This document shows, piece after piece, positions 3,392 to 9,260 of a DNA stretch of 9,295 nucleotides. The position numbers and the translations under genes are program-made. The number at the start of each line of letters is the position of its first letter. Positions within the stretch are counted from its first letter, which is position 1. This DNA is from Nitrospinota bacterium. Its GTDB lineage: Bacteria; Nitrospinota; Nitrospinia; JACRGO01. A model generated the notes under the pieces. That model was not told where the DNA came from. It did no database searches and was given only the letters and a program-made list of their open reading frames with translations. The stretch lies in contig JACRGO010000053.1 in assembly GCA_016212295.1 (NCBI GenBank), forward strand, positions 1 through 9,295. The letters run 5' to 3'.

Positions 3392-3434
3392 TTAAACCCC
3401 CTGATAGCGACTAAAGTTTAAAGTGAGACTAAGC

Positions 3435-3495
3435 GGGCACAAAGATCACAAAGTTTTTTCTCCGTGTCCTTTGTGAAATTTTTGTGCCCTTTGTG
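3435..3495. repeat. Inverted repeat built from CACAAAG units
   Basis: This lies in the gap of nearly 400 bases between gmd and the miniprotein gene. The left arm (3435-3453) begins GGGCACAAAG and contains CACAAAG at 3438 and 3447, nine bases apart. The right arm (3469-3489) is its complement with a 2-base indel, ends GTGCCC, and is followed by another CTTTGTG at 3489-3495. The loop is about 15 bases and T-rich. I recall similar CACAAAG/CTTTGTG intergenic repeats from unrelated bacterial genomes; this is recollection, not a search result. Confidence 0.75.
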
Positions 3496-3538
3496 GTTAA
3501 TTTTAATTCTCTTGTTCCCAGGATTTGCCTCACTGCCG

Positions 3539-3732
3539 TTAAGTTAAGGAATTTAACTTGGGTTTTGATCTTCTCTTGTCCCGGAGGGACGGCTGAAAAG
3601 CGATGTGGAGAGGACCAAGGATTCAGTCGTCCCTACGGGACTTACCTATTTGGTCTCGTTACCCAGCAATGAATTGCTGGGCTACTATCACAAGTCCCTC
3701 CGGGACAAAAACGGAAAATTTCCTTAACTTAA
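3539..3732. repeat. 194-bp nested palindromic element (MITE/REP-like)
   Basis: The outer inverted repeats are about 16 bp: TTAAGTTAAGG at 3539-3549 continuing to 3554, and its complement at 3716-3732 with one missing base. Inside is a perfect 15-bp inverted pair at 3576-3590 and 3694-3708 containing GTCCCGGAGGGAC and its complement. The centre has a GTCCC-TAC-GGGAC hairpin (3629-3641) and a perfect 9-bp stem, CCCAGCAAT/ATTGCTGGG, at 3662-3681. The GTCCC-N3-GGGAC unit therefore appears three times. AAGTTAA/TTAACTT at 3541-3559 gives a further hairpin at the left end. No coding potential is convincing. The architecture fits a non-autonomous mobile element or REP cluster; no transposase for it is in the window. 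Confidence 0.75.
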
Positions 3733-3891: not shown

Positions 3892-3922
3892 GGATTACTC
3901 ACCTCCTTTTAAAAGCGGTTAT

Positions 3923-4019
3923 CAGTTGACAGTTTTCAGTTGGATGCCGCCATATTCTAATACCTAATCTCTGGCCCCTGGTCCCTGATTCCTGTCAACT
4001 GACACCTGACACCTGACAG
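3923..4019. repeat. Inverted heptamer array
   Basis: The right arm at 3957-4019 is nine contiguous 7-base units, each starting CT: CTAATAC, CTAATCT, CTGGCCC, CTGGTCC, CTGATTC, CTGTCAA, CTGACAC twice and CTGACAG, with no phase slip. The left arm at 3923-3943 has CAG every seven bases (CAGTTGA, CAGTTTT, CAGTTGG), the opposite orientation of the same theme; TCAACTG at 3995-4001 is the exact complement of CAGTTGA. The array ends one base before the stop codon of the neighbouring minus-strand gene and occupies the upstream region of the miniprotein gene. Confidence 0.75.
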
Positions 4020-5120
4020 CTATTTTTTAACCGTTTTTCTCCAAATCTTGTCCGCCTTTTTGAGTTTCAGTCCAAGGTATTTCCTGAACACGTCCTCGAA
4101 GTCCTCGGTTGTCCCTTTTTTCAAGGCCATTAATATTTTAGCCTTTCTTTCCTCCGCCGAGCCTCCGGTCTCCTCTGACTCAAAAAGAAATTTGACGAAG
4201 GAGCATGACATCAATAATAGCGCTGTATGGGCATGTACCCTGGAGTTGGACACAAGGGAAAAGAAAGCCACGTACTGGGCCCACCGGTCGAATTCCACGT
4301 TGGAGACAAGCTTGGTAATTTTTTCCAGCGGGATGCTTTCCATGATATTTTTTGTTTCCTCGCAAAAAACCTCCTTTGAGGCATTGAACACTGGGTAACG
4401 CCCCTCCGCGATGAATTGGGCGTAATAGGCGGAAAAACCGTATAGAAAAAAACGTGGAATTTTTCCGTTCAGCCTCCGGAGGAAATGAGAGCAAAGCTGA
4501 AACAGGTCGCAGGGATGATTGGAAAAGACCCAATCACGTCCGGCGGTCCCGGCCTCCAGGCCGATTTCCGGCAGGGATTTTTCCCCGTCAAATACGAAAT
4601 AGTCCAGGGCGGAATCAGGCGCCTTTTCATCAAAATATTTTACCAGTCTCTCATATTCCCCTTGGGCGCAGCCAGCGTGGATAGGGTCCATGCTCTTCTT
4701 GATGGAATAATCAAAGAAATGCCTGATCCTTTCCCCGTCTATCCTTCTCCATCCCTGGCGTTCTGAAAGACGCTTGAGATAAGCGCCCTTTCCTGAAACC
4801 TTCCACTCCCCTCTTTCGGGGTCCTTTTGAAAAGGAAACCAGGTATATTCAGTGGAGACGGGCTCCCGGCCTTTTTCAGGCGTGTAGGAATAGAACATGC
4901 GGACAAAATCCGCCTCTTCAATTTTTTCCTGAGAGCTATCCCCAACCACCACGGCCTTGTGGAAGGCCGTTTCATTGTGTTTTAAAAAATTTTGGAAGGA
5001 GGGGATTTCAAATTCGTCCATGTCCTCCGGGGAACGGAAAAACCCGGCCAAGCCCCTGGGGTCCTTTTTTTTCGCCTCCTCGCACAAACGAATAAAAATT
5101 TCTTGTGGTTCAATGTACAT
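4020..5120 (-). CDS. Cytosolic protein of unknown function, resembling a catalytically dead peptidase MA-like protein
   Basis: A 366-aa protein with no signal peptide or membrane segment. I do not recognise it by name. Its C-terminal two thirds follow the layout of peptidase MA-like (gluzincin) proteins. A predicted strand region YERLVKYF...DYFVFDGEKSLPEI (156-186) comes first. Next is DLFQLCSHFLRRLNG (205-219), where an active relative would carry HExxH. Then come IPRFFLYGFSAYYAQF (221-236), where WLxEGxAxY would give the third zinc ligand; helices at 279-315; and ERKAKILMALKKG..FEDVFRKYLGLKLKKADKIW (324-360), which closely follows the usual helical tail. Every expected ligand is replaced (F207, Q208, S211, Y227), so if the assignment holds it is a pseudo-enzyme. 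Residues 1-130 are not recognised. The ribosome binding site is a modest GGAGAG about 11 bases upstream. The assignment is inference from pattern and spacing only. Confidence 0.75.
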   Translation of the reverse strand: MYIEPQEIFIRLCEEAKKKDPRGLAGFFRSPEDMDEFEIPSFQNFLKHNETAFHKAVVVGDSSQEKIEEADFVRMFYSYTPEKGREPVSTEYTWFPFQKDPERGEWKVSGKGAYLKRLSERQGWRRIDGERIRHFFDYSIKKSMDPIHAGCAQGEYERLVKYFDEKAPDSALDYFVFDGEKSLPEIGLEAGTAGRDWVFSNHPCDLFQLCSHFLRRLNGKIPRFFLYGFSAYYAQFIAEGRYPVFNASKEVFCEETKNIMESIPLEKITKLVSNVEFDRWAQYVAFFSLVSNSRVHAHTALLLMSCSFVKFLFESEETGGSAEERKAKILMALKKGTTEDFEDVFRKYLGLKLKKADKIWRKTVKK

Positions 5121-5156: not shown

Positions 5157-5200
5157 CCCAAAAAAAATAATTTAACAGGGATGCACAGGATGCACAGGAT
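5157..5200. repeat. Direct repeat copy 1 flanking the GxxExxY gene, with GGATGCACA tandem
   Basis: The 35-base unit at 5157-5191 starts CCC, then eight A, then TAATTTAACAGGGAT, and ends CACAGGAT. It matches 5602-5635 except for one extra T and one G/A change. It is followed by a tandem of the 9-mer GGATGCACA (5179-5187 and 5188-5196) and a partial GGAT. The GxxExxY stop codon lies four bases further on. Unlike copy 2, this copy lacks the inverted left arm. Confidence 0.75.
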
Positions 5201-5203
5201 AAA

Positions 5204-5578
5204 TTAGTTATGCAATCTTCTATATTCAAGCTTAGGGTTTCCAAAGTTGACCAAAAGTCCGACTTCAATGCCAGTTGCCTTAAGATAATTGATCAACTGG
5301 GCCTGATGCTCAGGCGCAAGTTTTTTTATTGCTTTTATTTCTATGATAACCATATTCTCAACTAAAATATCTGCGTAGAATTCCCCGACCACTGCTCCTC
5401 TGAATTTCACGGAAATAGGAAACTGCGCCTGCGCCTTCAGGTCTTTATCCTTTAAGGCAAGAAGCAACGCCTTCTCATATACCGATTCAAGGAAACCAGA
5501 GCCTATTTCGTTGCTTACCTCGAAACAGGCTTCCAGTATTTTTCCAGTTAATTTTTCGTGCAGCATTTTAATTTTCAT
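5204..5578 (-). CDS. GxxExxY protein (PD-(D/E)XK-like fold)
   Basis: A 124-aa protein if started at the ATG at 5578, or 130 aa from the ATG at 5596. The signature G-F-L-E-S-V-Y is residues 28-34 of the shorter form, after the usual helix KLTGKILEACFEVSNEIG. A PD-(D/E)XK-like core follows: D in FYADILV, then IIEIKA with the E-x-K pair, and a final strand GLLVNFGNPKLEYRR. The family is widespread and of unestablished function, with a nuclease-like fold. I prefer the 5578 start because the extra six residues are encoded inside a repeat stem and an AGGA lies eight bases before 5578, whereas nothing suitable precedes 5596. The gene is bracketed by near-identical 34/35-base direct repeats and its stop abuts one of them, which suggests it travels as a cassette. 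Confidence 0.9.
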   Translation of the reverse strand: MKIKMLHEKLTGKILEACFEVSNEIGSGFLESVYEKALLLALKDKDLKAQAQFPISVKFRGAVVGEFYADILVENMVIIEIKAIKKLAPEHQAQLINYLKATGIEVGLLVNFGNPKLEYRRLHN

Positions 5579-5584
5579 CCTTCC

Positions 5585-5636
5585 TATCCTGTCCATCCCT
5601 GCCCAAAAAAAATAATTAACAGGGATACACAGGATA
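5585..5636. repeat. Direct repeat copy 2 within a 17-bp-stem hairpin upstream of the GxxExxY gene
   Basis: TATCCTGTCCATCCCTG (5585-5601) pairs with CAGGGATACACAGGATA (5620-5636) with two mismatches. The 18-base loop is CCC, eight A, then TAATTAA. The loop plus right arm (5602-5635) is the second copy of the direct repeat seen at 5157-5191. The hairpin lies between the PDZ lipoprotein stop (5652) and the GxxExxY start. It could act as a transcription barrier, but it lacks a U-run after the stem. Confidence 0.75.
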
Positions 5637-8081: not shown

Positions 8082-8131
8082 GATAAGCTCTGTCTATTTA
8101 AGCTTGCTAAATCAAAATCCAGAAATGAACA

Positions 8132-8203
8132 GCGGAGACGCCGAGGCACAGAGAAAATCTCTTTAATCATAATATTTTTTTCTCCGCGCCTCAGCGTCTC
8201 CGC
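8132..8203. repeat. GC-rich inverted repeat with about 8-nt period
   Basis: The left arm at 8132-8147, GCGGAGACGCCGAGGC, pairs with 8188-8203 with one mismatch in 16. The 40-base loop is AT-rich. Each arm itself shows an approximately 8-base period of GAG/CTC (right arm: CTCCGCGC, CTCAGCGT, CTCCGCGG). It fills the space between the PDZ lipoprotein start and the end of the acyltransferase gene. I recall very similar CTC-CGC repeats in intergenic regions of many unrelated bacteria; not verified. It could form a strong hairpin downstream of the acyltransferase gene. Confidence 0.75.
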
Positions 8204-8237
8204 GGTGAAAAAAATTTTAAATATTTTTGGTTAACAT

Positions 8238-9140: not shown

Positions 9141-9260
9141 TGAACGTCCAACGTCCAACATCGAACGTCCAACATCGAAGTAAGAAAAATTCGTTTTACG
9201 TTTTAAATCCTTTCTTCCTTTTTCGACGTTCGACGTTCAATGTTGGATGTTCGATGTTCA
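9141..9260. repeat. Inverted heptamer array (AACGTCC / ACGTTCG type)
   Basis: The left arm has units TGAACGT at 9141, CCAACGT at 9148, CCAACAT at 9155, CGAACGT at 9162 and CCAACAT at 9169, all in 7-base phase. The right arm has ACGTTCG at 9226, ACGTTCA at 9233, ATGTTGG at 9240, ATGTTCG at 9247 and ATGTTCA at 9254, again without slip. The complement of each left unit belongs to the same (A)(C/T)GTT(C/G)(A/G) alphabet as the right units, so the arms can pair in more than one register. An AT-rich loop of about 50 bases separates them. It lies upstream of the acyltransferase gene. With the flanking DNA at 9033-9140, which shows no gene, this accounts for the end of the window. Confidence 0.75.

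Follow-up and report, generated by a model that had tools for sequence, protein, structure and literature searches.

Introduction

A close described counterpart of the locus reported here is the REPIN/RAYT system, in which one gene is flanked by its own palindromic repeats and is not amplified, many gene-less inverted pairs being dispersed in the genome, and in which the RAYTs presumably serve the REPINs (PMC3116915). The window, i.e., the whole stretch of 9,295 nucleotides of Nitrospinota DNA that was analysed, carries a gene of the GxxExxY family which is likewise flanked by its own palindromes, and inverted pairs of the flanking motif were found to be dispersed. The repeats of the two systems differ, being tandem 7-mers at 9-10 bp for GxxExxY and GTAG-tagged for the REPs, and so do the enzymes, as the RAYT protein (TnpA-REP) is HUH Y1 transposase-like whereas the GxxExxY protein is predicted to be of the Cas4/RecB-type PD-(D/E)XK kind. 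Because the enzyme is unrelated, the GxxExxY system is not a REPIN/RAYT system by membership.

Further systems share single traits with the locus. MITEs and their parent insertion sequences resemble it in that an inverted-repeat unit with a gene is accompanied by inverted-repeat copies which lack the gene; in contrast to insertion sequences and MITEs, the GxxExxY element possesses no recognised transposase and no target-site duplication was seen, and, unlike those of MITEs, its arms vary among copies although the two arms of any one copy match. As far as the protein is concerned, Cas4 (including solo-Cas4) and the lambda-exonuclease family provide the closest solved folds and share the D..ExK..QxxxY motifs, whereas the GxxExxY protein has a length of about 130 aa, was seen in neither a CRISPR nor a phage context and matches the PADLOC Cas4 models only with E 0.01. 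The 23S rRNA intervening sequences (encoding the S23p / four-helix-bundle protein) likewise have a small gene enclosed by a long inverted repeat; they encode a different protein, however, the GxxExxY places that were read lie between protein-coding genes, and the GxxExxY arms lack the mismatch bias expected under selection for an RNA-level stem (see below). To our knowledge, the PD-(D/E)XK class of enzymes has not been known to be encoded by such a single gene that is accompanied by its own dispersed palindromes. The open-access literature searched yielded no description of an association of GxxExxY or of the repeat sequences with one another, and likewise none for DUF559 with inverted repeats or for Cas4-like nucleases with palindromes.

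Architecture of the window locus

The original prediction described the GxxExxY gene as bracketed by direct repeats of 34/35 bp and suggested a possible mobile cassette, spread by recombination or as a passenger. Re-alignment of the two repeat copies (Table 1) confirmed that they differ by one gap and one substitution in 35 aligned columns, whereby the alignment score of 28.5 is far above the maximum of 14.5 obtained in 200 trials with shuffled controls, for which the 450-bp flanks were resampled first-order (dinucleotide-preserving). As described, the stop codon TAA (5204-5206, minus strand) is located at a distance of four bases from the first copy in its extended form (5157-5200). The 17-bp hairpin that includes copy 2 (5585-5601 with 5620-5636) was likewise confirmed, 15 of its 17 positions being paired.

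Read in gene sense, the locus consists of a left arm (ATCCTGTGTATCCCTG), a loop (TTAATTATTTTTTTTGGG), a right arm (CAGGGATGGACAGGATAGGAAGGAT), the gene, again a left arm (ATCCTGTGCATCCTGTGCATCCCTG) and a loop (TTAAATTATTTTTTTTGG), without a second right arm. From this order it follows that the direct repeat is left arm plus loop and that the gene resides between inverted arms, the upstream arm CAGGGATGGACAGGATAGGAAGGAT (which together with copy 2 makes up the hairpin) and the downstream arm corresponding to each other in inverted orientation. The unit duplicated in the direct repeat of the window comprises left arm and loop; in functional terms, the locus is symmetrical by inversion and not by direct repetition. 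The upstream arm and the beginning of the long ORF overlap, the arm also providing a Shine-Dalgarno-like AAGGA.

Table 1. Features of the GxxExxY locus, in positions of the window
Feature	Position	Strand	Evidence
GxxExxY gene (TIGR04256 / PF13366 PDDEXK_3), intact 130-aa ORF	5204..5596	-	Pfam E 9.4e-41, NCBIfam E 3.7e-41
Upstream (5') inverted arm, gene sense CAGGGATGGACAGGATAGGAAGGATGAAA	5573..5601	-	Sequence; inverted match to downstream arm, score 15
Left arm of upstream hairpin, sense ATCCTGTGTATCCCTG, pairing with 5586-5601	5620..5635	-	15/17 paired including flanking base
Direct repeat copy 2 (left arm + loop)	5602..5635	-	
Downstream (3') inverted arm, gene sense ATCCTGTGCATCCTGTGCATCCCTGTT	5174..5200	-	Sequence
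Direct repeat copy 1 (left arm + loop; second right arm absent)	5157..5191	-	

The GxxExxY protein

The ORF between the arms matches PDDEXK_3/GxxExxY models only and, with 140 bits for TIGR04256 (cut-off 35) and 139 bits for PF13366 (cut-off 22), belongs to the GxxExxY family. Since the first codons of the 130-aa ORF fall in the repeat arm, translation is likely to start at the ATG 5566-5564 (M11), as suggested by comparison with homologues. The AlphaFold2 model of the protein (pLDDT 96.9) predicts a Cas4/RecB-type PD-(D/E)XK fold, with Cas4 SSO0001 (4ic1) being the nearest solved fold (Foldseek E 1.6e-4; Z 9.6 over 98 residues, 3.1 A), followed at lower rank by LHK-exonuclease (LHK-Exo), lambda exonuclease, AddAB and Holliday-junction resolvases; a search of solved structures by sequence gave nothing above chance. 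No variation was seen among 52 sequences at the residues E37, D76, E86, K88, Q100 and Y104. By its model, its Foldseek match and these residues, the predicted nuclease possesses both the core fold and the catalytic D..ExK residues of the PD-(D/E)XK superfamily. Among Luteimonas orthologues dN/dS amounts to 0.02-0.28, by which measure the gene is under purifying selection.

A role in anti-phage defence was not indicated by PADLOC, which gave no strong match (the best, to a Cas4 model, with E 0.0098). Spread by plasmids or phages was considered and rejected, as the family is rare on plasmids (7 of 72,556 records) and absent from the phage records searched (0 of 50,697), the viral contigs being without a relative as well. 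As to gene integrity, one genome (G087:C130:29589-30347) possesses a 289-aa open frame with two GxxExxY domains, and five others (G002, G011, G013, G015 and G030) hold many GxxExxY fragments and stop-containing frames, pointing to frequent decay of the gene.

Inverted arms of GxxExxY loci

For comparison, loci were picked blind to their flanks, GTDB genomes contributing 80 named loci and the phylum of the window about 30, and the best inverted match of the 160 bp upstream against the 170 bp downstream was scored. Inverted arms (score at least 14) were identified in 79% of 107 GxxExxY loci, as compared to 4.8% of cross-locus pairs and 0.5% of random places within the same loci; clear arms are missing in about 20% of the genes. 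Direct-repeat scores of 14 or more were reached by about 30% of the loci, whereby direct repeats occur where each side carries a whole hairpin. According to the record titles, the phyla with GxxExxY loci include Desulfobacterota, Acidobacteriota, Planctomycetota, Verrucomicrobiota, Chloroflexota, Spirochaetota, Nitrospirota, Bacteroidota, Bacillota and several candidate phyla.

The arms are phased arrays in which a 7-base motif recurs two to four times at intervals of 9-10 bp, a period identified in 61 of 77 arms and close to one helical turn. The unit differs among elements (ACAGGAT, CACAGAT, CACGGAT, CGCAAAG, CACGAAG and others) and is common to both arms of one element, the upstream arm being purine-rich in 80 of 93 cases. 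On the basis of crude ORF calls, the gene has the orientation of its co-directional neighbours in 59 cases and the opposite one in 5, whereas gene-less hairpins are oriented about 7:6, i.e., without bias; the simplest reading of this is selection for read-through expression and not an insertion rule. Mismatches between the arms, counted in the sense strand of 94 loci, are of the G.U type in 82 and of the A.C type in 84 cases. An excess of G.U would be expected if the arms served as an RNA stem, and there is therefore no RNA-strand signal.

Dispersed gene-less repeats

The pattern ATCCTGTNNATCCYTGTTNA (at most two mismatches) matches 29 times in the window genome and once as reversed control, so that, along with the inverted pairs at 79% of the loci, the repeat is tied to GxxExxY genes and not random. 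The outcome that would have spoken against the original prediction, a random repeat unconnected with such genes, was not observed. In the only congener (G001) one match was found for pattern and control each. Most dispersed copies are hairpins of 90-170 bp without a gene, which reside at different sites and share the left end and the loop. Three further GxxExxY genes of the window genome, each located between inverted copies of another motif (CACGGA, CACGAA and CGCAGAT/CGCGGAT), encode proteins with 40-54% identity to the window protein. The congener possesses a CAGGAT-type gene of its own and hairpins with their own spacing signature; when synteny of both genomes was compared, the neighbour gene was present in a different context, hence no clean empty site was obtained. 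Neither a target-site duplication nor a precise insertion boundary was found, as judged from the aligned solo copies and from the Luteimonas junctions, the latter being too diverged to define ends.

Filled and empty sites in Luteimonas

In Luteimonas the element occupies precisely the junction of two genes, for an enoyl-CoA hydratase and a biotin carboxylase, taken from their sequences to be liuC and liuD. Among 43 genomes read at this junction, seven carry an intact element, one (G107) a degraded element and one (G129) the 3' arm only, whereas about a dozen have few bases between the two genes and the rest possess longer spacers or other inserts. Filled and empty or gene-less alleles hence exist at one site, as the original prediction had proposed to look for, in addition to the repeat copies without a gene. 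Arm identity at this junction is 94% within an element as compared to a mean of 62% between species, and changes therefore hit both arms together. The gene-less Luteimonas palindromes are often nested, and an orthologous pair of them (G096 and G077) differs by GGG to GGA in both arms. At one locus just upstream of liuD (L233, genome G077), the upstream arm mirrors the first bases of this host gene (AGAGCATTTTTT / AAAAAAATGCTCT), as if copying of one arm from the other had extended beyond the edge of the element.

The CGCGGAT-array pattern gave 32-51 matches in six of the eight gene-bearing Luteimonas genomes and two and four in the remaining ones (G131 and G129), compared to 0-15, mostly 0, in 43 of the 44 gene-less genomes; controls were zero throughout. 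The exception among the gene-less genomes is G138 with 40 matches, for which gene loss or another enzyme is possible; the 15 matches were counted in G107, which holds the degraded element at the site. At least 30 repeats were thus counted in 6/8 gene-bearing and 1/44 gene-less genomes (kinship ignored; many assemblies incomplete) and at least 15 in 2/44 gene-less ones (Fisher p 3.6e-5, kinship ignored), and the counts with and without the gene differ (Mann-Whitney p 4e-6, kinship ignored). In the window's phylum, medians for gene-positive genomes and the others were 13.5 and 2 for ACAGGAT arrays (p 2e-6) and 11.5 and 1 for CACAGAT arrays (p 6e-5), kinship being ignored in both cases; two genomes (G041 and G024) have many repeats and no gene.

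Proposed mechanism and alternative explanations

Based on these data, the window locus is suggested to be a member of a widespread two-part system, consisting of a GxxExxY nuclease gene and cognate palindromic repeats on which the nuclease acts, a reading which we put forward with evenly balanced confidence. It builds on a maintained gene with a nuclease fold, on cognate palindromic arms with helical phasing, on the dispersal of copies that lack the gene and on the statistical association of gene and repeats, from which we infer the action of the nuclease on the palindromes. Most likely the system operates at the DNA level, as a REPIN/RAYT-like pair with an unrelated nuclease. The suggested mechanism assumes recognition of the motif array, with its helical phasing, by the nuclease, probably when replication exposes it in the form of a hairpin or cruciform; the recognised palindrome would then be nicked or cut. 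Host repair would subsequently copy the palindrome elsewhere, whereby hairpins would multiply in trans at a low rate, as REPINs do with a RAYT, and copying by repair would keep the two arms of each palindrome identical. The gene copy itself may be expressed via read-through from its neighbours.

Of the other explanations, the one with most to recommend it, albeit unlikely, assumes that host processes (template switching, hairpin-primed repair or recombination) make and spread the palindromes and that the gene merely rides inside. Gene-less copies do far exceed gene copies, and the G077 arm AGAGCATTTTTT mirrors the start of liuD, a copying of adjacent host bases that template switching would bring about; yet the same gene family is found in unrelated palindrome families across many phyla, and the repeat number depends on the presence of the gene. 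As purifying selection (dN/dS 0.02-0.28) and the 59:5 orientation also argue against it, the passenger role offered by the original prediction probably does not apply. Somewhat less probable still is a behaviour like that of homing endonucleases, with the nuclease cutting repeat sites and the gene invading existing palindromes by gene conversion, for which speak the predicted nuclease fold and the location of the gene between the halves of palindromes that occur elsewhere without it. Against it stands the divergence of the gene copies of one genome, which have 40-54% identity to the window protein and differing arms; moreover, a repeat family in which one genome holds many near-identical copies of the gene was not seen.

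An element acting at the RNA level, comparable to the 23S rRNA intervening sequences, in which the transcript of the gene would be released through an RNA stem formed by the arms, is regarded as improbable. The arms could pair in a transcript and the genes are co-directional with their neighbours, but the fold is predicted to be of DNA-nuclease type, and neither the mismatch asymmetry (82 G.U and 84 A.C, no preference) nor the orientation of the solo hairpins, for which none is preferred, lent support to such a stem, so that this model was rejected. A simple cassette, excised or duplicated via recombination between the 34/35-bp direct repeats, is very improbable, even though the direct repeat of the window is real and about 30% of the loci reach direct scores of 14 or more: most loci have inverted arms only, which is the shared design, and direct repeats occur where a whole hairpin resides on each side. 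What endures of the cassette idea is the non-random, gene-linked repeat and the existence of empty sites; spreading by way of recombination at the direct repeats was not supported.

Beyond the two-part system as such, it is tentatively suggested, with somewhat less confidence, that bacteria possess a new class of mobile palindromes whose enzymes are the GxxExxY nucleases, and in which a hairpin-recognising PD-(D/E)XK protein, without transposase or recombinase, would drive the spread of cognate repeats and the homogenisation of their arms in many phyla. If true, this would explain the origin of short repeats of the types ACCACGGATGAACACGGAT, ACAGGATGAACAGGAT and CGCAAAGACGCAAAG, which are widespread and so far without explanation, would give a function to a protein family known only by its motif name and would show that a REPIN-like partnership of one gene and a palindrome cloud has arisen with a different enzyme. 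Dispersed repeats of this kind are present in many bacterial genomes, and the link to GxxExxY provides a candidate enzyme and a testable substrate.

Further observations

An ORF of the nuclease-like DUF559 family (PF04480) with inverted repeats of its own (CCCTCCCCTTCAAGGGGAGGG...GGGTGGGGATGGTGTT) was seen at the liuC-liuD junction in five loci (L220, L221, L225, L229 and L231), the Pfam match having been run on L231 only. This element is possibly a parallel system, and its occurrence at the same junction suggests that the phenomenon may be broader. In genome G000, the solo CAGGAT hairpins of loci L005-L011, L015, L022 and L025 are located inside a larger ATTTTAGATTT-type palindrome and are repeated together with it. 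At two loci of the congener (L310 and L311), the gene is followed directly downstream by a repeat of the element's 5' end, in which the region of the gene start is included.

The window itself contains other palindromes of short tandem motifs (3434-3503, 3541-3727, 3922-4020, 8129-8206 and 9142-9252; motifs CACAAAG, GTTAAGTTAAGGAA, CTGACACCTGACA, CGGAGACGC and AACGTCCAACGTC), which have no GxxExxY gene nearby and have the appearance of solo copies from other families of repeats. Positions 226-1854 encode a protein with a hydrophobic N-terminal stretch and a sub-threshold match to peptidase C13 (caspase/legumain-like).
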